Virus record (IMG/VR): IMGVR_UViG_3300046450_001731
Location: 1-27,037 of that record
Reading direction: 5' to 3' (one strand)
Source of the DNA: a virus
Length of the DNA stretch: 27,037 bases
Positions 13,293 to 22,867 of the stretch are shown in pieces; position 1 is the stretch's first letter; each line of letters begins with the position of its first letter. Under the pieces are notes generated by a model. The model was not told the DNA's origin. It saw nothing but the letters and a program-made list of their open reading frames with translations, and searched no databases. The translations under genes and the position numbers were made by a program.

Positions 13293-14162
13293 ATGAAAGC
13301 AAGACACGCAGTTCAGCAAGTCACTCGCAACGTACACGCCGTGACCTTCGACCTGACCAGTGTTGACCAAGAGCAGTGGTTTTTGCTATCGAGCGATCGA
13401 CACCACGATAATGCACACACTGATTGGGAGTTGGAAAACAAGCACCTGAAACAAGCCGTCGAGCGCCAGGCAGGCATCATCGACATAGGCGACATGCATT
13501 GTGCTATGCAGGGTAAGTGGGATAAGCGCGCCGACCGATCCGCACTACGCGAGAAGTACAGGGATGGCGAATATCTCGATTCCTTAGTCAAGTATGCAGC
13601 CGAGTTCTACTCACCCTATGCAGAGAACTTCGTTATCGTGGGCCGAGGGAACCATGAAACGGCCATCACTAAACGGCATGAGACGGACATTACCGAACGC
13701 ACCTGTGATCTGATGTCCCACATGTCCGGTGGAAAGGTGCATGCTGGCGGATATGGGGGGTGGATCATTCTCCGCGCTCACCTCGGTGGGGAGAAGAAAC
13801 ACGTCATCCGAATGAAGTACTTTCACGGCTCCGGTGGCGGTGGGCCTGTTACTCGCGGCGTGATACAGACTAATCGAATGTCAGTTTTCTTGCCCGACGC
13901 AGACCTGGTCGTCACCGGCCATACGCATGACAACTGGATACTGCCGATTGCTCGGGAACGAATCAACAGAAGTGGAAAAATTTACATGGACGAGCAAACC
14001 CATGTACGCTGTGGCACATACAAAGATGAATACGGAGATGGCTTCGGGGGATGGCACATCGAGCGAGGAGGCCCACCAAAGCCATTAGGTGCAGTTTGGA
14101 TGCGTATCTGGCAGGAAGGGCGAGACAGGACGGTCAAGTATTCCGTAACCCGTGCTCAATAA
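13293..14162 (+). CDS. Calcineurin-like metallophosphoesterase
   Basis: A 289-aa protein carrying the standard metal-binding motifs in order: SDRHHDN (34-40), GDMHC (66-70), GRGNHE (117-122), an isolated His in KYFHGSGGGG (H178) and GHTHDN (209-214). The family hydrolyses phosphomonoester or phosphodiester bonds using a two-metal centre, and includes Mre11/SbcD nucleases and lambda-type phosphatases. The substrate cannot be told from sequence. No capping domain or membrane segment is seen, so it is probably cytoplasmic. It ends the terminase cluster, just before a 600-bp noncoding region. Confidence 0.85.
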   Translation: MKARHAVQQVTRNVHAVTFDLTSVDQEQWFLLSSDRHHDNAHTDWELENKHLKQAVERQAGIIDIGDMHCAMQGKWDKRADRSALREKYRDGEYLDSLVKYAAEFYSPYAENFVIVGRGNHETAITKRHETDITERTCDLMSHMSGGKVHAGGYGGWIILRAHLGGEKKHVIRMKYFHGSGGGGPVTRGVIQTNRMSVFLPDADLVVTGHTHDNWILPIARERINRSGKIYMDEQTHVRCGTYKDEYGDGFGGWHIERGGPPKPLGAVWMRIWQEGRDRTVKYSVTRAQ

Positions 14163-14686: not shown

Positions 14687-14715
14687 TTGACAAGTGGCTG
14701 GTACTGCATTACATT
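14687..14715 (+). promoter_or_regulatory. Promoter for the accessory gene array
   Basis: TTGACA at 14687-14692, 17-nt spacer, TACATT at 14710-14715 (four of six -10 matches). It ends 46 nt upstream of the first accessory gene. The -35 box lies inside the palindrome ACTTGACAAGT (14685-14695), so a repressor could cover it. It is the best promoter in the window and probably starts the array transcript. Confidence 0.65.
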
Positions 14716-14761: not shown

Positions 14762-15064
14762 ATGAACACCAGCATCACCACCCGCACCATGACCAACGGG
14801 TTCGTCAACACCGCGAGCACGGAGCTGGTGCAGCTCGACTGCCAGACCCTGGTCGAGATGATCGACCCGCAGAGTGAGACCGTCTACATCGACGCAGTCC
14901 ACCGGCTGCAGGTCAACAGCGTGTTCAAGTTCGAAGGCCAGTGGCTGAACGTCGGTGGCCTGGTCGATATCGAGCAGGGGTTCAGCACCTGCAGCAGTTG
15001 CGGGTGCCCCCTGGGTCACACCTCGCAAGATCCCGACACCTGCAACGACGCAGACTGTCAGTAA
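14762..15064 (+). CDS. First array gene, C-terminal zinc-binding motif
   Basis: A 100-aa protein. The start is the ATG at 14762, preceded by CACCCTGGAGAGCACC, the same leader as the next gene; a longer in-frame extension upstream crosses the promoter and is rejected. Residues 22-72 are mixed strands and helices. The tail has C77, C80, C82, C94 and C99 (TCSSCGCPLGH and TCNDADC), a likely small zinc ribbon. The Thr-rich N-terminus is shared in style with other array genes. Function is unknown. Confidence 0.75.
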   Translation: MNTSITTRTMTNGFVNTASTELVQLDCQTLVEMIDPQSETVYIDAVHRLQVNSVFKFEGQWLNVGGLVDIEQGFSTCSSCGCPLGHTSQDPDTCNDADCQ

Positions 15065-15080
15065 TCACCACCACCACAAC

Positions 15081-15096
15081 GGGGGCTGCGACCCCC
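15081..15096 (+). repeat. Start-associated hairpin 1 (GGGGG, CTGCGA loop)
   Basis: GGGGG-CTGCGA-CCCCC lies after the first gene's stop, with 26 nt between the hairpin and the next ATG. The leader CTGGAGA follows at 15111-15117. Confidence 0.8.
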
Positions 15097-15122
15097 ATCA
15101 CAACAACACCCTGGAGAGCACC

Positions 15123-15464
15123 ATGAACACCACCACCACCACCAGCACTGCTTGGGCAGCGCACATGTGCCTGCATCGCCACATCACCCTGACCGGCGGG
15201 AGCAGGGAGCCCACTTGCCATCGCTGTGGGACCACTGGACGGGCAGAGCTGGTCGGCACAGAGAGCCTCTACCCTGGGCCGTCCCCGAGTCGGCGGTTCA
15301 TTCGCATCAACGGACAGATCGACGATCTCGTAGCCGATGCGGCGGACGCCAGTGCACGGCGGGAGCAGGGAGCAACGAGCTGGGACGCCGCAGCTCAGGC
15401 CCGGCGCAACATCACGGCCACCTGGGAACGGGCATTCTCGGGCGCCGATCTCTTCACCGTCTAA
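15123..15464 (+). CDS. Small protein with zinc-finger-like N-terminus
   Basis: A 113-aa protein starting at the ATG at 15123 with the CTGGAGA leader. It opens with five Thr encoded by ACC repeats. C16, H18, H20, C32 and C35 (MCLHRH and TCHRCG) could bind one zinc. Residues 50-105 are helical and charged (FIRINGQIDDLVADAADASA, then AAAQARRNITATWERAF). The gene carries two copies of the 16-bp GGCGGGAGCAGGGAGC repeat in two different reading frames. Function is unknown. Confidence 0.7.
   Translation: MNTTTTTSTAWAAHMCLHRHITLTGGSREPTCHRCGTTGRAELVGTESLYPGPSPSRRFIRINGQIDDLVADAADASARREQGATSWDAAAQARRNITATWERAFSGADLFTV
15195..15210 (+). repeat. 16-bp repeat, copy 1
   Basis: GGCGGGAGCAGGGAGC, here in codon phase 0 and read as GGSRE. 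The same 16-mer recurs at 15358 and 22685 in the other two codon phases. Confidence 0.7.
15358..15373 (+). repeat. 16-bp repeat, copy 2
   Basis: Identical 16-mer, read here as RREQGA. With four more bases upstream it shares 20 nt, GCACGGCGGGAGCAGGGAGC (15354-15373), with the copy at 22681-22700. Confidence 0.7.
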
Positions 15465-15481
15465 CCTACACCACCACAACC

Positions 15482-15499
15482 GGGGCGAATCACCGCCCC
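15482..15499 (+). repeat. Start-associated hairpin 2 (GGGGCG, AATCAC loop)
   Basis: GGGGCG-AATCAC-CGCCCC, 20 nt before the next ATG. It is preceded by an A/C-only stretch and followed by the CCCTGGAGA leader. Confidence 0.8.
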
Positions 15500-15519
15500 A
15501 AATAACCCTGGAGAACACC

Positions 15520-15816
15520 ATGAAGACCATGATGAAAACTATGTACATGATCACCCTGGACAACGGCACAGAGATACACGCAAATAGCGGCGGCGTCGAA
15601 CGTCTGCACGAACTCAGTACGCATTACGCCAAAGTTGCGAGGGCCGCACGGCTCCTGTGCGGGGGTCGCAATACCACCACCGCGAAACTGGCCGACGAAG
15701 CGAGCGAGAAATTGTCCGACGCGGGGTTCGATATGGAATACGGTGATCCCGACAGCAGTGCGTTGAACTTCGTCACCTGTTACACGGATATACGACAGAC
15801 CCGCGTAAGGAAGTGA
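15520..15816 (+). CDS. Small accessory protein, unknown
   Basis: A 98-aa protein starting at the ATG at 15520 with CTGGAGA six bases upstream; longer in-frame extensions run through the hairpin and the previous gene. It opens with three Met-rich short steps (MKTMMKTMYMITLDNGTEIH), then a helix (ERLHELSTHYAKVARAARLL) and a second helix (AKLADEASEKLSDAGFDMEY). No catalytic motif or membrane segment is seen. Probably a small cytoplasmic phage protein of unknown role. Confidence 0.7.
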   Translation: MKTMMKTMYMITLDNGTEIHANSGGVERLHELSTHYAKVARAARLLCGGRNTTTAKLADEASEKLSDAGFDMEYGDPDSSALNFVTCYTDIRQTRVRK

Positions 15817-15832
15817 CCAAGTAAACGGCGAA

Positions 15833-15873
15833 ACGCACCTGCGAGTGCGTCGCGGCGGGGTTGTTCCCGCCGC
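15833..15873 (+). repeat. Tandem start-associated hairpins 3
   Basis: Two hairpins in a row. The first is ACGCAC-CTGCGA-GTGCGT (15833-15850), with the same loop as hairpin 1 but a different stem. The second pairs GCGGCGGG (15852-15859) with CCCGCCGC (15866-15873) around a six-base loop. CGGCGAAAC begins at 15826 and also opens the tandem element at 20081-20129. The next ATG is 48 nt downstream. Confidence 0.75.
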
Positions 15874-15921
15874 CTGACGATGCCAGCAATGCACCAACCA
15901 AATCCCTGGAGGGAAAGCACC

Positions 15922-16896
15922 ATGAAGAAAACAAAAAAAATCCGCCGCGACCTGTACCAAGAGATCACCGACACAGTAATCGCCAGCCTGGAGCAGGGCA
16001 ACATCCCCTGGGAGCGTCCCTGGGGCGCCGATGGAGCTGGTCTGCGCGACGCCCCCCGCAGTGTATCGACGGGCAAGACCTACAGTGGCACCAATTGGTT
16101 CTGGTTGGAAATGATGCGTCAAGCCAAGGGCTACAGCAGCCAGTGGTGGCTCACGTTCAATCAGGCGAAAAAATTGGGCGGCATGGTCAAGAAAGGGGAG
16201 CGCGGCACGGTCGCGGTTTTCTGGAAGCTGCTCAGCAAGGACGAGATCGACCCGGCGACGGGCGAGAAGGCTGTCAGTTCATTCCCCGTCCTGCGGTCGT
16301 TCGTCGTGTTCAACGTGGACCAGTGCGACATGCCTGCTGAGGCCTTGGCGAAGCTGGGCAATCGCCTCGACAAGCTGGCCCCGGTGATCGATGCTGGGGA
16401 CGTCACGGAGATCGAGCCCATAGCCATTGCCGATGCGGCCCTAATGGGATTCATCGCTGATCAGAAGATCGGCTTCGCCAATGGGGGTGATCAAGCCTAC
16501 TACAGCCCCAGTGATGACCGCGTGCAAATGCCGCCGGTACAGTCGTTCAAAGACAGCGAGTCTTACTATGCTACGCTGGCCCATGAAGCTGTCCACAGCA
16601 CTGGACACAAGTCAAGGCTGGCACGGGCGTTTGAAAAGCAGGCGGCGTTTGGTTCCGCCGACTACAGCCGGGAGGAGTTGGTCGCGGAACTGGGCGCCTC
16701 CATGGTGCTGGCGGTGCTGGGCATCGACAAGCCTGCGATCGCTACGAACCGGGATGCCTACATTCAGTCCTGGATTAAAAAGTTGCAATCAGATCCCAAG
16801 GCGATTGTTTTGGCCAGCGGCAAGGCTGCTAAAGCCGCCGACTACATCCTGGACATCGACGCCGCAGGGGACCAGGCGCCGAAGGCCACCGTCTAA
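15922..16896 (+). CDS. ArdC-type antirestriction protein with zincin domain
   Basis: A 324-aa protein. The ATG at 15922 follows CCTGGAGGGAAAGCACC; the earlier ATG overlaps the leader and is rejected. Residues 10-105 match the ArdC N-terminal ssDNA-binding domain: YQEITDTVIASLEQGNIPW, TGKTYSGTNWFWL, WWLTFNQAKKLGG and VKKGERGT ending in FW. Residues 205-265 match the metallopeptidase part: LAHEAVHSTGH with ligands H221 and H225 and catalytic E222, then EELVAELGAS, which supplies the third ligand. ArdC proteins protect incoming DNA from restriction in plasmids and phages. All key residues are present and the length is usual. Protease activity is not proven for the family. Confidence 0.85.
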   Translation: MKKTKKIRRDLYQEITDTVIASLEQGNIPWERPWGADGAGLRDAPRSVSTGKTYSGTNWFWLEMMRQAKGYSSQWWLTFNQAKKLGGMVKKGERGTVAVFWKLLSKDEIDPATGEKAVSSFPVLRSFVVFNVDQCDMPAEALAKLGNRLDKLAPVIDAGDVTEIEPIAIADAALMGFIADQKIGFANGGDQAYYSPSDDRVQMPPVQSFKDSESYYATLAHEAVHSTGHKSRLARAFEKQAAFGSADYSREELVAELGASMVLAVLGIDKPAIATNRDAYIQSWIKKLQSDPKAIVLASGKAAKAADYILDIDAAGDQAPKATV

Positions 16897-16910
16897 CCAC
16901 CACAACAACC

Positions 16911-16928
16911 GGCGCGAATCACCGCGCC
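16911..16928 (+). repeat. Start-associated hairpin 4 (GGCGCG, AATCAC loop)
   Basis: GGCGCG-AATCAC-CGCGCC, 21 nt before the next start. Compared with hairpin 2 the third base pair is C-G instead of G-C. It is followed by the CCGAGAGGA leader type. Confidence 0.8.
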
Positions 16929-16949
16929 ACACAACCGAGAGGAATGAAC

Positions 16950-17189
16950 ATGACGCTCCGACACATTGCACCAAATCAAACTGAGATCACGACCGCAGGC
17001 GGCGATATTGTACTCTTCAGCTATTCGACGCCGGTCGCGGCGTTTGTGGCGCCTCGATGGCGATCTGGTGGTGGCTATATCCGAACCGAGGAAAAGTACA
17101 GTGCGACAACTACCGATCACATCAACGAATGGCTTGGGGATCGGTTCGCCAAAATCGTACCACAGGATGACATCAACGCAATCGCTTAA
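16950..17189 (+). CDS. Small phage protein with TPVA...TTDHIN pattern
   Basis: A 79-aa protein. The ATG at 16950 is chosen over the one at 16944 because GAGAGGA directly abuts 16944 but is well spaced for 16950. The pattern YSTPVAAFVAPRW, then GGYIRTEEKYSATTTDHINEW is of a kind seen in many small phage and plasmid proteins, with a strand pair followed by a helix. Function is unknown. The same leader and double ATG occur in the next gene. Confidence 0.7.
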   Translation: MTLRHIAPNQTEITTAGGDIVLFSYSTPVAAFVAPRWRSGGGYIRTEEKYSATTTDHINEWLGDRFAKIVPQDDINAIA

Positions 17190-17202
17190 CGCAACCGCAA
17201 CC

Positions 17203-17220
17203 GGCGCGAATGACCGCGCC
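17203..17220 (+). repeat. Start-associated hairpin 5 (GGCGCG, loop variant)
   Basis: GGCGCG-AATGAC-CGCGCC, 24 nt before the next start. This is the only AATCAC-class copy with a changed loop base (C to G). The CCGAGAGGAATGAATATGAC leader follows. Confidence 0.8.
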
Positions 17221-17244
17221 AGATAACAACCGAGAGGAATGAAT

Positions 17245-17463
17245 ATGACACACTACGCACAGGTAACTGATAACGGGCAGGAGCGGTTGGGGAGTTTCGC
17301 CCGAATGATACTCGACGGTCGCGATAGCTGGCTAACTATGATCGAAAACGCTTTGTGGTTGCAGGATCGCGAGGGCGGGAGCGGCGTCCGTGTTGTGAGA
17401 TCGTCAAAATTTGTGGATACAGATTTGTCCCGCAGCAGAGTGATTTTTATCTGCGGACACTAA
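17245..17463 (+). CDS. Small accessory protein, unknown
   Basis: A 72-aa protein. The ATG at 17245 is preferred to 17239 for the same ribosome-site spacing reason as its upstream neighbour. Residues 15-38 form a helix (SFARMILDGRDSWLTMIENA) and residues 50-70 form strands (VRVVRSSKFVDTDLSRSRVI, then FICGH). It contains one short GGCGGGAGC motif at 17374. No family recognised. Confidence 0.65.
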   Translation: MTHYAQVTDNGQERLGSFARMILDGRDSWLTMIENALWLQDREGGSGVRVVRSSKFVDTDLSRSRVIFICGH

Positions 17464-17471
17464 CAGCAACC

Positions 17472-17489
17472 GGGGCGAATCACCGCCCC
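17472..17489 (+). repeat. Start-associated hairpin 6 (GGGGCG, AATCAC loop)
   Basis: GGGGCG-AATCAC-CGCCCC, 20 nt before the ATG at 17510. The ribosome site here is AAGGAG (17497-17502), unlike the other two GGGGCG copies. Confidence 0.8.
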
Positions 17490-17509
17490 ATATAACAAGG
17501 AGCAAAACG

Positions 17510-17731
17510 ATGAAAGAAACCATGGAAAGCAGAGAGGATAAACTAGATGAAATCTGGGGAGAGGCGTGGTATTATGCGATAGCATGTGGACATCCTGACC
17601 CAGATGGATATGCAAATAGCAAGGTGGCGCTACGGGCTCCTCCTGTGAAAAAAACAGACACAGGGCTGAGGCAGGGTAGCAGGGCAGGCAGGCGGCAGGC
17701 AGCAGCATGTCGGGCGAGGGGTCAGGGATGA
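17510..17731 (+). CDS. Small protein with low-complexity tail
   Basis: A 73-aa protein. The first 40 residues look normal (DKLDEIWGEAWYYAIACGHP, then DPDGYANSKVALR), but the last 25 are Arg/Gly/Ala-rich and come from a G-rich GGCAGG-type simple repeat at 17668-17705. The tail may be a decayed or recently expanded end. The stop overlaps the next start as ATGA, so the two are coupled without an intervening hairpin. Function is unknown. Confidence 0.6.
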   Translation: MKETMESREDKLDEIWGEAWYYAIACGHPDPDGYANSKVALRAPPVKKTDTGLRQGSRAGRRQAAACRARGQG

Positions 17732-17940
17732 GGATTTACAGGAACAACTACACAGCAGATACGAACGACGGCGGCAGCTCCTATCACAGGACGAGAGCAG
17801 AGGCTATAGCGGCGTTTGATGAGCAGCAAGAGGAGGAAGATACCTACTCTGTTCGGGCGGAACTGATAGTCGTCCATTGCACGACAGAGGGGATACTTGC
17901 AGGGCTAAACCGCTACGCTTCGCATAATGACAACGGGTAA
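17728..17940 (+). CDS. Small accessory protein, unknown
   Basis: A 70-aa acidic protein. The ATG at 17728, overlapping the previous stop, is chosen over 17707 because it gives a normal start (MRIYRNNYTAD) and classic coupling. Residues 1-35 include a strand and a helix with SSYHRTRAEAIAAFDEQ; the rest holds strands (SVRAELIVVHCTTEGI). It resembles short phage proteins in which a repeated Y-x-x-x-A segment precedes a helix. No function assigned. Confidence 0.6.
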   Translation: MRIYRNNYTADTNDGGSSYHRTRAEAIAAFDEQQEEEDTYSVRAELIVVHCTTEGILAGLNRYASHNDNG

Positions 17941-17958
17941 TCCACAACAACCACAACC

Positions 17959-17976
17959 GGCGCGAATCACCGCGCC
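17959..17976 (+). repeat. Start-associated hairpin 7 (GGCGCG, AATCAC loop)
   Basis: GGCGCG-AATCAC-CGCGCC, 22 nt before the ATG at 17999, followed by the CCGAGAGGG leader. Confidence 0.8.
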
Positions 17977-17998
17977 ATATAACCGAGAGGGTAACATC

Positions 17999-18121
17999 AT
18001 GCCAGAAAACGACCGCAATAAAAAACAAAAACACACGATGACCGAGGCGGAATACCAGCTAAACGCAATCGCCATCCTGGCACTAGCACTGGCAGTTCTG
18101 GTTTATATTACCTGCGCCTAA
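17999..18121 (+). CDS. 40-aa single-span membrane peptide
   Basis: The start is the ATG at 17999, set by GAGAGGG eight bases upstream and by the hairpin spacing. Residues 1-20 are hydrophilic and basic (PENDRNKKQKHTMTEAEY). Residues 22-38 are a hydrophobic span (NAIAILALALAVLVYIT). The positive N-terminus suggests a cytoplasmic N-terminus. It is too small for most holins, and could be a membrane-targeted inhibitor or modulator. No family recognised. Confidence 0.7.
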   Translation: MPENDRNKKQKHTMTEAEYQLNAIAILALALAVLVYITCA

Positions 18122-18135
18122 CCCACAACCACAAC

Positions 18136-18151
18136 GGGGGCTGCGACCCCC
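18136..18151 (+). repeat. Start-associated hairpin 8 (GGGGG, CTGCGA loop)
   Basis: GGGGG-CTGCGA-CCCCC, 21 nt before the ATG at 18173. The following 32 nt (18155-18186) are identical to 19435-19466. Confidence 0.8.
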
Positions 18152-18172
18152 ATCACCCTGGAGAAAAACACC

Positions 18173-19006
18173 ATGAACAAGACCACTGAAAATGAGAACG
18201 GCGGGAGCGCCGATCAGCACTCGTTCGCCGAATCCTGTCGGGAGAATACGGGCAGTCACTTCTTGGACAGCGGAGGCGCCTACGGACGCATCTATGACCA
18301 GCCCCCGATCACCCATAACACCCCTGAGGTGACCTGGGATGATCCCGACTGCAGCGCCACGATAGAAACAGCCAAGTGGCTGGAGAATCAGTACGTGATC
18401 GACCAGGACCTGACCACTAAATTTTTGGAGTGGGACGCGGAGCAGGATGACGGCAAGCTGGCATGGGCTGACAGCCTGCATCGGTTTTTTCTGGTGGACG
18501 ACGCCCCCTACACTCTGGATCGTGGCGAGGACTACCTGCCGGTACGTTACCAGGGGCACGGCACCGACAACGTGTATAATCACGAGAACGACCTGTCGCA
18601 GGTTTTCACCTGGAACGTCCTGGTGCCCAAGGACTGCGATAGCGCCGAGCCTGGCCTGTACGCTGACGATGACACGATCATCGTGATACAAATCCACACG
18701 GGCTGCGATGTCCGTGGCGGCTACGCTGCCCCCCTGCTGTGCCGGTGCAATGCCGAGTACGCAGTACCCGTCGATGTCTGCGCCGAGTACGCGATCACCG
18801 GCAGCAATACGCTGGACGATGACGAGCGGCAGCAGGCGGATGAAGAGTGGCGCAGCGGGTACAGTAGTTGGCCCTACGGTCAGGTGCGCGACGATGTGCA
18901 ACGCTGGTTTACGTGGGCCTGCGCTGACGCCGATTCCCATATCGCCCTACTCAAGTCCGGGCACATCGTGAAAATAACAGCGGGGTTGCCCTACCTCGGA
19001 GCATAG
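18173..19006 (+). CDS. Acidic accessory protein, conserved-looking N-terminus
   Basis: A 277-aa acidic protein. Residues 16-45 (SFAESCRENTGSHFLDSGGA, then YGRIYDQP) are of a type seen near the start of many uncharacterised phage proteins. Residues 60-120 are helical and include a WLENQY segment. Residues 150-215 hold strands and C-rich turns (DTIIVIQIHTGCDVRGGYAA, then LLCRCNAEYAVPV). The end is a helix and a strand pair. No enzyme motif is seen. It may interact with host proteins, but its role is unknown. Confidence 0.75.
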   Translation: MNKTTENENGGSADQHSFAESCRENTGSHFLDSGGAYGRIYDQPPITHNTPEVTWDDPDCSATIETAKWLENQYVIDQDLTTKFLEWDAEQDDGKLAWADSLHRFFLVDDAPYTLDRGEDYLPVRYQGHGTDNVYNHENDLSQVFTWNVLVPKDCDSAEPGLYADDDTIIVIQIHTGCDVRGGYAAPLLCRCNAEYAVPVDVCAEYAITGSNTLDDDERQQADEEWRSGYSSWPYGQVRDDVQRWFTWACADADSHIALLKSGHIVKITAGLPYLGA

Positions 19007-19037
19007 CCATAACAAACCCTAACCACAAACCGCAACC

Positions 19038-19055
19038 GGCGCGAATCACCGCGCC
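19038..19055 (+). repeat. Start-associated hairpin 9 (GGCGCG, AATCAC loop)
   Basis: GGCGCG-AATCAC-CGCGCC, 21 nt before the ATG at 19077, followed by CCGAGGAGA. Confidence 0.8.
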
Positions 19056-19076
19056 AGATAACCGAGGAGAGACACC

Positions 19077-19394
19077 ATGACAACAGCAATCGGAACATTC
19101 ACGCTCGCTGAACCAAGGGTATATAGTCGGGGCTATGAAACTGCCAGTTGGTACACTGACATAGAGGTACATCCCGGAGAATATGAAGTCACCCAATCGG
19201 CAGATGGCTACTGGGCATTAGTGACAATGCCGGGAAAGATCGTTGGGAGCAACTTTGTTAATCAAATTTTTCACGCTTCTTCCCATCATAAAAATGAGGA
19301 CGTTGGCAAAGATACGACTTACACGATCCAGACTCAAATGTTCAGTTTGGACAGACTTAAGGGCTACACGCCCGTTCACAACATCACCGCCTAA
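19077..19394 (+). CDS. Small accessory protein, unknown
   Basis: A 105-aa protein with GAGGAGA seven bases before the ATG. Strand-rich N-terminal part (ASWYTDIEVHPGEYEVTQSA, then YWALVTMPGKIV), a short histidine-rich loop (FHASSHHKNED) and a C-terminal stretch of Thr/Gln. The IEVHPGEYEV segment suggests a small beta barrel. No motif for catalysis. A role in host takeover is possible but not shown. Confidence 0.65.
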   Translation: MTTAIGTFTLAEPRVYSRGYETASWYTDIEVHPGEYEVTQSADGYWALVTMPGKIVGSNFVNQIFHASSHHKNEDVGKDTTYTIQTQMFSLDRLKGYTPVHNITA

Positions 19395-19409
19395 CACCTA
19401 ACCACAACC

Positions 19410-19427
19410 GGGGCGAATCACCGCCCC
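19410..19427 (+). repeat. Start-associated hairpin 10 (GGGGCG, AATCAC loop)
   Basis: GGGGCG-AATCAC-CGCCCC, 25 nt before the ATG at 19453, followed by the CCCTGGAGA leader. Confidence 0.8.
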
Positions 19428-19452
19428 ACAACCAACCCTGGAGAAAAACACC

Positions 19453-20079
19453 ATGAACAAGACCACCACCACCACCACCACCGCTGCCCAGTGGGAAACC
19501 ACCGCCGTCACCCGGATATCGTATGACGTTGAGAAATCACCGATCACCGTGGCGGACTGGCAGCGGATGCTGGTCGACCCATATGATTACGTCATAAAAT
19601 GCTACGACATCAATGGTGCCCATCAACGCCATGGTGATTATTTCACCGACGACCATGAAGATGCCTTGGCAACCAGTGCTGAGATCATTCGGCGGAGCTG
19701 CGTAGCGCAGAACCTGGTCGACGATCGCGAGTACATGGTCGACGATTATGATCAAGGTCACCGTCGCATTTGTCATGTAGGCAGCATTTTTGCTGATGGT
19801 CGAAAAGTACAACCATCCGTCCTGGGTGGATTCACCGACATCACAGTTGACCAGATCGGGGTAGGCACGGCGAACAAGATACGTGACAGGGTCTGCGAGT
19901 ACTACGGTGGCACATCGCTGCAGATCGAGTCTATCAAAGTGACGATCGTCGACTACATCGTCACACTGATCATCGGTTGCAGGGTCATCGCCCACTGGGA
20001 CGCTGACAGGGTCGGCGATTACTACATGACGATGTTGCGTCCTGGCAGCGAGGAGTGGCTCATCGACGATGTCACCTGA
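19453..20079 (+). CDS. Accessory protein with poly-Thr start, unknown
   Basis: A 208-aa protein beginning MNKTTTTTTT, encoded by seven successive ACC codons after ATGAACAAG. The body has strands and helices: SYDVEKSPITVADWQRMLVD, then DDHEDALATSAEIIRRSCVA, and a strand segment VTIVDYIVTLIIGCRVI that is hydrophobic but flanked by charged strands. No recognised domain. The first 14 nt of the coding sequence match those of the 18173 gene as part of a 32-nt identity. Confidence 0.7.
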   Translation: MNKTTTTTTTAAQWETTAVTRISYDVEKSPITVADWQRMLVDPYDYVIKCYDINGAHQRHGDYFTDDHEDALATSAEIIRRSCVAQNLVDDREYMVDDYDQGHRRICHVGSIFADGRKVQPSVLGGFTDITVDQIGVGTANKIRDRVCEYYGGTSLQIESIKVTIVDYIVTLIIGCRVIAHWDADRVGDYYMTMLRPGSEEWLIDDVT

Positions 20080-20088
20080 TCCGGCGAA

Positions 20089-20129
20089 ACCAGGTCTGTG
20101 AACCTGGTCTGGTCGGGGCGGTTCCCCGA
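20089..20129 (+). repeat. Tandem start-associated hairpins 11
   Basis: ACCAGGT-CTGTGA-ACCTGGT (20089-20108), then TCGGGG (20113-20118) pairing with CCCCGA (20124-20129) around five bases. CGGCGAAAC precedes at 20082-20090. It parallels the tandem element at 15833-15873 in order and loop, with nearly all stem bases replaced. The recombinase ATG is 38 nt downstream. Confidence 0.75.
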
Positions 20130-20167
20130 TCACTGATGAGCCAAACCATACACCCTGGAGCAGGACA

Positions 20168-21256
20168 ATGGCACAAAAGAAGAGGACAGAAGGCACTGGA
20201 CAGATCGTTGAGCGCAGGGGCAAGTACGCCCTGCGATTTGGCGGGGCTCAGATGCTGATTAAAGACAGCGCTGGCCAGGCTGTCACCAACCTGCGTGATG
20301 CCAAGCGGCGTGCCACACACACCCGTGATGCGATTGCGGCGGGAGCAGCTCAAGTAGCTGTAGTACCGGCGAAGGTCAGCGCAGCTATCATCGGCAACCT
20401 GTACGAGGCTTTCGATTCCGCTCCGCTCCGAGACCAGGAGTTGACCGTCGATACCATGTACAACCACAAGTGCCGCCTGGGGGTCTTTGGGCGCTGGGCT
20501 ACTGCACAGGGGCTCACAGTCGACGACATCGACAGCGACCTATCAGTCTCTTATCTCAAGCAGATGACCTGCGCACCGGCAACGGTCAGGACACACAGGG
20601 CGACGCTGATGGCCGTGTGGGAGGCGCTCTTCGAAGCGCGTCGCAACCCCTGGAAGAAGACGCAAGCACCGCGCCTGGATACGGTCAATAAGGAGCCGTT
20701 CAGCCAGGCGGATCAGGAGCTGATCTTCCAGTACCACGCCGAGCTGCGTGGCCGGGAGAAGTACTGTCGGCGGGGTGGCCGCGAGTTTCACACACTGCAT
20801 GTCATCGGACGCTATACCGGCATGCGTCGGGGCGATTGCTGCCAGTTGCAGTGGAGCAGCTTGGACGGCAGCACTATTGCCGTCACCACTAGCAAGCGCG
20901 GAAGGCCGGTACGCATCCCGATGCACCCCGTACTGATCGCTGAGCTGGAGCAGTGGGGCGACCACGACGACCAGTATATCCTACCTGAACTGGCAGCATG
21001 GTACGTTTCCGACAAGAAGACCCTGAGCCAGATGCTAATGGATCACCTACGGGGGGCTGGCATTGCTACGGCAGATGCCGCCACCGGCAGGGTTGTCAGG
21101 GGGTTCCATTCCTGGCGGCACTTATTTGTCACTACTTTGATCGAAGCGGGTGTTGATCGCGACCTGATTGTGCGCATTGTTGGCACCTCGCCGATGCTGC
21201 TGCGTGACGTGTACGACCATTCTGAAACCGACGCAGTTCTTGCTGCGTTGTCCTAA
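20168..21256 (+). CDS. Tyrosine recombinase / integrase family protein
   Basis: A 362-aa protein. Residues 70-165 form a SAM-like core-binding domain (TVDTMYNHKCRLGVFGRWAT). The catalytic domain shows R220 in YTGMRRGDCCQLQW, K243 in TSKRGRP, H314 and R317 in FHSWRH, and Y349 in RDVYDHS. The usual LGH is IVGTS here, so the last His/Trp is replaced by T340. Family members cut and rejoin DNA through the tyrosine for phage integration or dimer resolution. GGAGCAGGACA precedes the ATG. Activity is likely but the missing residue leaves some doubt. No attachment site was found nearby. Confidence 0.85.
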   Translation: MAQKKRTEGTGQIVERRGKYALRFGGAQMLIKDSAGQAVTNLRDAKRRATHTRDAIAAGAAQVAVVPAKVSAAIIGNLYEAFDSAPLRDQELTVDTMYNHKCRLGVFGRWATAQGLTVDDIDSDLSVSYLKQMTCAPATVRTHRATLMAVWEALFEARRNPWKKTQAPRLDTVNKEPFSQADQELIFQYHAELRGREKYCRRGGREFHTLHVIGRYTGMRRGDCCQLQWSSLDGSTIAVTTSKRGRPVRIPMHPVLIAELEQWGDHDDQYILPELAAWYVSDKKTLSQMLMDHLRGAGIATADAATGRVVRGFHSWRHLFVTTLIEAGVDRDLIVRIVGTSPMLLRDVYDHSETDAVLAALS

Positions 21257-21264
21257 ACACAAAC

Positions 21265-21280
21265 GGGGGCCGCGACCCCC
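21265..21280 (+). repeat. Start-associated hairpin 12 (GGGGG, CCGCGA loop)
   Basis: GGGGG-CCGCGA-CCCCC, 23 nt before the ATG at 21304. The loop differs from CTGCGA by one base. This is the last copy of the series. Confidence 0.8.
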
Positions 21281-21303
21281 ATCACCCCCGGAGAAAAAAC
21301 TAT

Positions 21304-21612
21304 ATGACATTCGCACAGGCAAACGCAGAACTGGCAGCAATCGCTGCAACGCAGGGCGGCGGAGCGTTCTCCGTGCAGTACAAGCACTTCACGTATGGCG
21401 ACGAGTGCGGCGCTGAACCCGACCGGATCGAGTGCCGTCTGTATCTCGGTGCGCCCGTCAATGATGCGTGGGAGGCGCAGACGTGGGCCGAGGCATTCGA
21501 CCTGATCGAGGCCACCCTTAGCCCGTGGCGGCAGTTAGTGGACCCCGAAGAAGCACCGTTGCACGACGACACAGCAGTAACCACAACCACCAACCCCGGA
21601 GCAGTACAATGA
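21304..21612 (+). CDS. Small accessory protein with leader-derived tail
   Basis: A 102-aa protein. Residues 1-75 look like a compact fold (FAQANAELAAIAATQGGGAF, CRLYLGAPVNDAWEAQTWAE, then helix). The last 10 residues (TTTTNPGAVQ) are encoded by what looks like the A/C-rich leader and ribosome site of the next gene, so an earlier stop was probably lost. The stop overlaps the next ATG as ATGA. Function is unknown. Confidence 0.65.
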   Translation: MTFAQANAELAAIAATQGGGAFSVQYKHFTYGDECGAEPDRIECRLYLGAPVNDAWEAQTWAEAFDLIEATLSPWRQLVDPEEAPLHDDTAVTTTTNPGAVQ

Positions 21613-22385
21613 GTAACATCCACTACAGCAACGCAAGCAACGATCAGCGCAGCTTCATCGAAGACCGCATCAACAGCGCCTGTGTCGCGCATCAGGGCTC
21701 GCTGGTCGACGACTTGATGGGCAAGGACGACGAGTGGTCCTGGGACAATGTCGCAGGCCTGCGACCGGACCCCAGCGACTGGGGCCTGGCTCAGTGTCGC
21801 GAGTACCTCGACGCGCACGGGATCGACGTCCCTGAGGTGGTCGGTGAGACCGAAGACGACATCGTCGCGGACGACCTGATCGAGCAGCTTCTGGAGCAGG
21901 CAGCAGAGGTCTGGGGCCATCGTGCCCCAGGCGGCGGGAATGCGCCTGACGTCGATCGCGGCGAACTGCTTGCCTGGCTGGCAGCAGTCAAGGGGGAGGT
22001 TGACGACACCGTCTGCGAGATTGATGTGCGGGTGCGCTACCACGACGGGGGCTACGTGTTCCTTAGTGGCGACGCGAGCTACGACCAGGATCATCGCGGG
22101 TTCTGCGCGGCGGCGTCTGTTGGCTACCATGAGGAGGACACCATAGAGATGTGGCAGGAGCAGGTGGAGGATAAAGCCAGCGACACCGAGGTTCTGGAGT
22201 GGTGGTTAATCACCGACGACTGGGTGCATGGTCACCTGCGTCGGGTCGGCGAGGCGGTGCTCGACAACGCGTATGGGACCTGGTGGGGCCGGAGTTGCAG
22301 CGGTCAGGCGATCAGCCTCGACCCGACATTCTGGGGTATTTACCAGCAACGCCTCCAGGGCATGGAGGCTGGGGCAGAAGGCTGA
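21609..22385 (+). CDS. Acidic accessory protein, unknown
   Basis: A 258-aa very acidic protein (strings such as GETEDDIVADDLIEQLLEQA). The ATG at 21609 follows CCCCGGAGCAGTACA; the longer in-frame extension lies in the previous gene. Residues 60-110 include helices with WDNVAGLRPDPSDWGLAQC. Residues 135-175 hold strands and a Gly-rich turn (IDVRVRYHDGGYVFLSGDAS). The end is helical. Strong acidity is common in DNA mimics and host-interaction proteins, but no match is recognised. Confidence 0.7.
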   Translation: MSNIHYSNASNDQRSFIEDRINSACVAHQGSLVDDLMGKDDEWSWDNVAGLRPDPSDWGLAQCREYLDAHGIDVPEVVGETEDDIVADDLIEQLLEQAAEVWGHRAPGGGNAPDVDRGELLAWLAAVKGEVDDTVCEIDVRVRYHDGGYVFLSGDASYDQDHRGFCAAASVGYHEEDTIEMWQEQVEDKASDTEVLEWWLITDDWVHGHLRRVGEAVLDNAYGTWWGRSCSGQAISLDPTFWGIYQQRLQGMEAGAEG

Positions 22386-22391
22386 ATAAAG

Positions 22392-22429
22392 CGCAGCCCC
22401 GCTAGACCGTAAGGCCGAGCGGGGCTGCG
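22392..22429 (+). terminator. 12-bp hairpin after acidic gene
   Basis: CGCAGCCCCGCT (22392-22403) pairs perfectly with AGCGGGGCTGCG (22418-22429) around 14 bases. It starts seven bases after the stop codon. There is no T-run, so it may be a factor-dependent or partial terminator, or a transcript-end stabiliser. It is larger than the array hairpins and unlike them in loop. Confidence 0.45.
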
Positions 22430-22437
22430 GTGCCCTC

Positions 22438-22448
22438 CACCCTGGAGA
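22438..22448 (+). other. Orphan ribosome-binding leader
   Basis: CACCCTGGAGA repeats the leader of the 14762 and 15123 genes but no start codon follows at normal distance; the next in-frame codons soon stop. A second leader (ACCGGAGCAGTCAA) lies just before the next real gene. This looks like the remnant of a lost gene. Confidence 0.4.
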
Positions 22449-22493
22449 GGTATTAAGCGCTAATAAACTACAACCCAACACCGGAGCAGTCAA

Positions 22494-22808
22494 ATGAAAG
22501 GCGCACTTAATATTTTTGAAGAGCGGAATATAACGCGACGCGAGGCTAAGATCGCTGGCGTGCCACGGTCGACGCAGCTGGTACGCGGCGACAGCACCCT
22601 GGTGCACCTCAGGCGCATCACAAAGGGCGAGCGGCTGGAGGTCGACATCAATAGCGATCACCCGCTGGCGTGCTGGTGGCGCACGGCGGGAGCAGGGAGC
22701 GGTGCCAACACCTCGATCAGGCTCACGGATGCGCAGCGCAAGAAGGCCCTGCAGCTGGGGGACGGTCGAATCAACAAGGGCATCAAAAGAGCCCTGGATA
22801 ACGCATAG
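22494..22808 (+). CDS. Last array gene, small basic protein
   Basis: A 104-aa basic protein with GGAG 13 bases upstream of the ATG. Residues 1-25 are helical (NIFEERNITRREAKIAGV), residues 30-55 are strands (TQLVRGDSTLVHLRRITKGE), and residues 75-104 form a basic helix (RLTDAQRKKALQLGDGRINK). A nucleic-acid-binding role would fit the charge, but no motif confirms it. It contains the third copy of the 16-bp repeat, in a third codon phase. A strong terminator follows. Confidence 0.65.
   Translation: MKGALNIFEERNITRREAKIAGVPRSTQLVRGDSTLVHLRRITKGERLEVDINSDHPLACWWRTAGAGSGANTSIRLTDAQRKKALQLGDGRINKGIKRALDNA
22685..22700 (+). repeat. 16-bp repeat, copy 3
   Basis: GGCGGGAGCAGGGAGC read here as TAGAGS. 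It is part of a 20-nt exact match (22681-22700) to 15354-15373. Confidence 0.7.
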
Positions 22809-22828
22809 GCGTACGAGGAGCCACATAG

Positions 22829-22867
22829 GGCCCGATCTGCACTCAGGTGCGGGTCGGGCCTTTCTCG
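22829..22867 (+). terminator. Intrinsic terminator ending the accessory operon
   Basis: GGCCCGA (22829-22835) pairs with TCGGGCC (22854-22860), and the stem continues inward through G-U pairs to GCAC-TCAG-GTGC (22839-22850). TTTCTCG follows. It is 20 nt past the last array stop and lies where plus and minus operons converge. Confidence 0.75.

Follow-up and report, generated by a model that had tools for sequence, protein, structure and literature searches.

A mixed array of conserved hairpins and type II hammerhead ribozymes upstream of the genes of a phage operon

Phages are known to carry hammerhead ribozymes in clusters. Perreault et al. (2011) described clusters that flank prophage genes, near integrases and ardA, and cleavage has been demonstrated for three tandem hammerhead sets (PMC3088659). 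The role of hammerheads in phage operons has been an open question since their discovery. Another kind of start-linked repeat is found in the Cluster K mycobacteriophages, where the Start Associated Sequence (SAS) is a 13-bp ribosome-site sequence located 3-7 bp from the start, and the Extended Start Associated Sequence (ESAS) repeats are 17 bp long, with little support for RNA base pairing according to the authors (PMC3203893). RiboJ consists of a hammerhead followed by a 23-nucleotide (nt) hairpin upstream of the ribosome site, which it isolates from upstream RNA (PMC8794103). Here we describe an array of short RNA elements in the IMG/VR virus record IMGVR_UViG_3300046450_001731, of which we analysed the whole 27,037 bases (the window). 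All 12 of the spaced gene junctions in 15065-21303, within an operon of small genes, contain a structured element, and these elements are of three kinds: a hairpin A (seven copies), a hairpin B (three copies), and the type II hammerhead (two copies). We found no earlier description of a conserved plain-hairpin array in the literature searched.

Hairpin A has the form GGSGCG-AATSAC-CGCSCC and hairpin B the form GGGGG-CYGCGA-CCCCC, both with six bases in the loop, and every copy in the array is on the coding (+) strand. The A copies are found at 15482-15499 (20 nt before the start of gene 15520), 16911-16928 (21 nt, gene 16950), 17203-17220 (loop AATGAC; 24 nt, gene 17245), 17472-17489 (20 nt, gene 17510), 17959-17976 (22 nt, gene 17999), 19038-19055 (21 nt, gene 19077), and 19410-19427 (25 nt, gene 19453). 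The B copies are at 15080-15097, with the 3' end 26 nt before the ATG of gene 15123, at 18135-18152 (21 nt, gene 18173), and at 21264-21281 (loop CCGCGA; 23 nt, gene 21304). The original prediction, made from the sequence alone, had placed a hairpin in each of the 12 gaps. A stem-loop is present in all 12 of those places, and the ten distances it gave (26, 20, 21, 24, 20, 22, 21, 21, 25, and 23 nt) are exact. It had described one uniform array of hairpins, which captured the association with starts and missed the presence of three families, one of them a predicted self-cleaving ribozyme. The A/C flanks it had noticed are also there, as the stretches between stop codon and hairpin are 94% A+C. 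Its remark that no T-run follows the stems, as an intrinsic terminator would have, is correct for the coding strand; read on the minus strand, a G/T-rich tail comes after the A hairpins.

The two hammerheads are also on the + strand. The one at 15826-15892, before the gene for an ArdC-like antirestriction protein (ATG 15922), matches the Rfam family RF02276 with 46.7 bits, above the gathering score of 37 bits. The other, at 20082-20146 before the integrase gene (ATG 20168), has a full core and falls just below the gathering score, with 35.0 bits (E 2.3e-7 for the record). Both have the CUGANGA and GAAA core, closed stems I and III, an open stem II, and GUC at the cut. Both would be active, with predicted cuts at 15851/15852 in the ArdC leader and at 20109/20110 in the integrase leader. 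Type II hammerheads commonly, though not universally, have a pseudoknot in which loop I pairs with the tail that follows stem II. It is possible in both cases, with six pairs (GUUGUU/AGCAAU) in 15826-15892 and four pairs (GGUU/AACC) in 20082-20146, and disrupting it strongly slowed a related ribozyme (PMC3088659). Stem III of these hammerheads accounts for the elements originally reported at 15833 and 20089, and its loops, CTGCGA and CTGTGA, are of the same kind as the B loop. Rfam gives no match at the ten A and B sites, and their leaders contain no hammerhead core. A RAGATH-21 match at 21244 was rejected, with a score of 21.6 far below the gathering score of 70.3.

These two elements resemble those of the prophage clusters of Perreault et al. 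in being type II hammerheads in the operon gaps of a temperate phage, near an integrase and an antirestriction gene, with the same core, open stem II, and loop I-tail pseudoknot. The difference is that here only two of the 12 elements are ribozymes, whereas the other ten belong to two conserved families of plain hairpin. Amongst annotated phages, the hammerhead leaders of the window match Streptomyces R4-like phages and Rhizobium phage RHph_I20. The number of Rfam type II hammerheads is 9 in R4 (in 13 kb), 9 in Spernnie, 11 in Loofah, and 2 in RHph_I20; the R4 counts are less informative because most sites overlap annotated reading frames. In Spernnie 8 of the 10 gaps of at least 50 nt hold a hammerhead, and in Loofah 10 of 13, mostly 3-22 nt upstream of the next start, with one before an OCR-like antirestriction gene. 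The likeness to the window is one fold directly before most gapped operon genes, on the sense strand, but theirs are ribozymes and not plain hairpins, and the phages and the host phylum are unrelated. The SAS and ESAS repeats, which the original prediction had taken as the nearest known idea, also precede the starts of non-structural genes in one orientation and are exchanged with genes (PMC3203893), whereas their sequences are unrelated to the array hairpins. The SAS sequence GGGATAGGAGCCC has no match in the window at two or fewer mismatches, and given the ribozyme family in the array, the closest known thing shifts to the hammerhead clusters of phage operons. RiboJ is similar in that a fold sits upstream of the ribosome site, a likeness in working and not in kinship; RiboJ is engineered, derived from the satellite RNA of tobacco ringspot virus (sTRSV), and has ribozyme and hairpin in tandem.

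A longer IMG/VR contig, 3300046532_002553 (43,273 bases; G002), is 99.95-100% identical to the window across nearly its full length, and closes as a circle of ~43.29 kb with an 18-base gap within the integrase gene. The A pattern has seven zero-mismatch matches in the window, against 0.10 expected at up to two mismatches from shuffled windows. For the B pattern there are three exact matches against 0.00 expected, and shuffled windows have none at up to three mismatches. An A covariance model scores 44-48 bits at the seven sites, with the next match in the window at 14 bits. In related records near-exact copies have at least 42 bits, a single copy in an 18-kb contig (G004) has 38, and all else has 17 or less. 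As the model was built from the A copies, the evidence is the gap to the background and not the score itself. Counted on the reconstructed circle with a home-made gene caller, and with the leaders of genes 17510 and 21304 assigned by hand, the 3' end of a hairpin lies 18-28 nt before the start in 10 of the 13 array genes and in 3 of the 39 other genes (Fisher p = 4e-6). By stem energy alone, some single stems (in B leaders and in the hammerhead gaps) are not above shuffled gap sequence; it is repetition, position, and conservation that carry the case. The array start regions are predicted to be more open than those of other genes, and their first codons are more A/C-rich. The claim that virion, packaging, and recombination genes lack hairpins survives for the A and B families, and fails in that the integrase, a recombination gene, sits in the array. 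Outside it, strong hairpins unrelated to A and B lie 27, 19, and 22 nt before three genes, which are the gene with its leader at 13293 in the window and two minus-strand genes whose starts are at 27263 and 29143 on the reconstructed circle.

The A hairpins, with 20 copies in 17 distinct rows, have one variable pair, which is C-G in 11 rows, G-C in 6, and never mispaired. In the B hairpins the loop is kept while the stem differs. The leader of gene 17510 provides a comparison between near-identical phages, as its positions 17474-17505 are replaced in G002. Over 27,019 aligned bases the window and G002 show ten differences, seven of them inside these 32 bases and including the paired change 17474/17487, and in 200,000 random placements the maximum was four differences in any 32-base stretch. 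From the distribution of these differences, it looks like the leader was exchanged as a unit, by a swap or by gene conversion, and an assembly artefact of a repeated leader may be an alternative source of the pattern.

The array is conserved in a syntenic relative, the 40-kb phage contig 3300001450_000080 (G003), which has the virion block in common with the window phage, with identities of 63% in the terminase, 57% in the portal, and 57% in the major head protein. Its small-gene operon contains ten copies of hairpin A and a single B-like hairpin, GCCCC-CTGCGA-GGGGC. The distance to the start is 21-23 nt for the A hairpins, with one outlier at 39, and 17-18 nt for B. With both phages pooled, the median distance from hairpin to start is 22 nt, with a standard deviation (SD) of 1.9 (outlier of 39 excluded), and for the distance from stop to hairpin the SD is 6.8. 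The original prediction had been made to depend on conservation in relatives and on scores beyond those of shuffled sequence, and both were found. The array genes of G003 are partly orthologous, in a changed order, and include paralogues with different hairpin families. No hammerhead was found in G003. At L014:2646-2820 of G003 there is a fragment that resembles part of a nearby AAA ATPase gene, followed by an apparent half A hairpin (GACCGCGCCAAATAAC).

Single A copies before a gene are found in two more contigs, the 18-kb G004, where it lies 25 nt before the ATG, and the unrelated 235-kb contig G001. The G001 copy belongs to a hairpin-gene unit (L020:10679-11003) that is common to G003 and ends in a half hammerhead. 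This half hammerhead stops exactly at the cleavage position, with stem III 23 nt before an ATG, and may, as a single case, represent a transitional form between ribozyme and plain hairpin. We did not find an empty site for the G001 cassette, and the gene next to it occurs widely in unrelated contexts. The small gene at L020:11206-11424 has relatives in at least 567 matched viral stretches. In the searches made, no A/B-family array was found beyond this small phage group. The array has no megablast match in annotated phages. The A pattern has one match in 84,980 bacterial and archaeal species (one genome per species), which is coding-like and judged to be chance, and a looser A pattern adds one contig in IMG/VR, with an incompletely paired stem and no start downstream. 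Queries with the concatenated small array proteins, with the terminase, and with a terminase alignment find these phages again, together with two fragments that stop short of an array, and plasmids searched with one leader sequence give nothing convincing.

We favour, tentatively, a reading in which the elements are start-associated, interchangeable RNA leader modules that insulate the ribosome site of each gene, two of them also cutting the transcript. The operon would be transcribed as a single early or moron-type transcript, with its own 5' leader module for each gapped gene. A module would have an A/C-rich unstructured stretch after the stop codon, a compact fold, ~22 nt that include the Shine-Dalgarno sequence, and the start codon, and the slot for the fold could be taken by hairpin A, hairpin B, or a type II hammerhead as functional equivalents. 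The fold would sit where the footprint of the initiating 30S subunit has its upstream edge, just outside the subunit going by general knowledge of ribosome footprints, and there it would shield the ribosome site against pairing with upstream sequence and against being overrun from it, so that the genes would start independently. In the ArdC and integrase modules the hammerhead would also cut the transcript to leave a new 5'-OH end beginning with stem I. The open start regions and the A/C-rich flanks and codons are consistent with selection to keep the mRNA unstructured around the ribosome site, and the translational control or RNA processing first suggested for the array fits the start spacing, the single strand, the compensatory stem change, and the conservation in the relative. 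Also in favour are the two positions with complete hammerhead cores and pseudoknots, the likeness of their stem III loops to the B loop, the hammerheads of Spernnie and Loofah, and the half hammerhead of G001. The array suggests a modular way for each gene of a long transcript to start separately, and may be a counterpart in nature to engineered leader insulators. Having plain hairpins in positions that hold ribozymes in other phages, it also offers a natural comparison within one mixed array. If hairpins can replace ribozymes, the common job would be the shaping of the start region or a processing site, and not self-cleavage alone.

Several observations weigh against this reading. Several leaders of the G003 operon are A/C-rich and have no hairpin, so there the fold is dispensable. 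The test of start-spacing against stop-spacing variance is borderline (p = 0.057, and 0.23 with the outlier). The pairing evidence for hairpin A is thin, limited to its sole variable pair since the other five never vary. In a published test, single upstream hairpins alone gave no gain in translation (PMC11087576). Finally, 16 of the 18 A positions are invariant in the 20 copies, far more than a pure insulator needs. This near-invariance suggests that something also reads A, which makes the array a start-linked RNA element with a putative reading factor, and folding alone an incomplete account.

Such a factor is our second choice, although an unlikely one: the A and B hairpins would be bound, perhaps cut, by an RNA-binding protein or endoribonuclease of the host or the phage, doing in trans the job of the hammerheads. 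Stem and loop letters that are near-invariant in 20 copies from five contigs would be explained, as would the interchange of hairpins and ribozymes at one position, and the spread into unrelated phages would suit a host factor. We identified no candidate nuclease or binding protein, and as A and B differ in both loop and stem, this would take either two factors or a single one able to read both. It is equally doubtful that the two ideas combine, with sequence-specific hairpins read or cut in trans being exchangeable with self-cleaving ribozymes in one natural insulator or processing system. The remaining readings, all less likely than the leader modules, include the DNA-level one also raised originally, that the imperfect dyad GGSGCG-N6-CGCSCC is a putative operator or stoperator by which a prophage repressor silences the operon. 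Stoperators bound by the prophage repressor are found in Cluster A mycobacteriophages. The phage is temperate, there are many dyads in one orientation in short gaps, a dyad would account for the paired changes too, and the sequence is near-invariant. We nevertheless consider it improbable given the fixed distance to the start codon, the hammerheads and B hairpins at the same place, the strand-biased A/C flanks, the absence of a half-changed dyad in all 20 copies, and the lack of an identified repressor. The leaders could also be short gene-border repeats kept as recombination linkers for swapping small genes, which the leader swap between the window and G002, the reordered orthologues and differently equipped paralogues of G003, and the hairpin-gene unit in G001 would illustrate. 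But shuffling may follow from repeats kept for another reason, and the start spacing, the pairing, and the ribozymes are left unexplained; we hold this idea to be slightly less likely still.

Two further readings seem to us very improbable. N4 early promoters are short hairpins before early genes, in a phage with a giant protein in the virion block (PMC4496689), and by analogy each array hairpin would be a DNA promoter for an injected virion RNA polymerase yielding a short-leader mRNA. A giant 3209-residue protein does adjoin the virion genes here, the gene order loosely recalls N4, and transcripts starting just past the hairpin would have a leader of ~22 nt. However, neither the giant protein nor the virion proteins have detectable sequence homology to N4 or its virion polymerase, the giant protein has no polymerase match in Pfam, PHROGs, or PDB and is a polyvalent protein that carries LPD38 and zincin-type motifs, the N4 hairpin loops have 3 bases (PMC4496689) against 6 here, and the hammerheads do not fit. 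Least probable of all is that the hairpins terminate antisense transcription. On the minus strand the stems are longer (with G-U pairs) and lead into the G/T-rich tail, and the region has 20 terminator-like sites against 7.0 expected, several of which are minus-strand A hairpins. Yet the tail is a mixture of G and T without a T-run, the hairpin-less leaders of G003 are likewise A/C-rich, the B loop recurs in the sense-strand hammerheads, and the spacing is set to the sense starts.

The phage has genes for portal, major head protein, internal virion protein, terminase, and integrase, which make it temperate and tailed. The 3209-residue protein (L017:2464-12093, in the same phage outside the window) has an LPD38 domain and two HExxH motifs, and its middle third is absent from the G003 homologue. 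AlphaFold2 on its conserved 1181 residues gave a predicted local distance difference test (pLDDT) score of 33, unusable as a model. The operon that contains the array is on the + strand at ~14762-22808. A candidate promoter for it, TTGACA-17-TACATT at 14687-14715 on the + strand, agrees with the consensus at 10 of 12 positions and would drive the whole operon; a sigma-70 promoter in each leader was sought and not found. The ArdC-like gene is at 15922-16896 on the + strand (PF08401 and PF18818; phrog_7245), and the tyrosine recombinase (integrase) gene at 20168-21256, also on the + strand (PF00589; phrog_1). Towards the end of the operon, a 12-bp G+C-rich hairpin at 22391-22430 lies ~65 nt upstream of gene 22494; it has no T-run and is unlike the A and B leaders. 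The operon probably ends in a terminator at 22828-22863 of the window, with arms GGCCCGA and TCGGGCC followed by TTTCTCGT.

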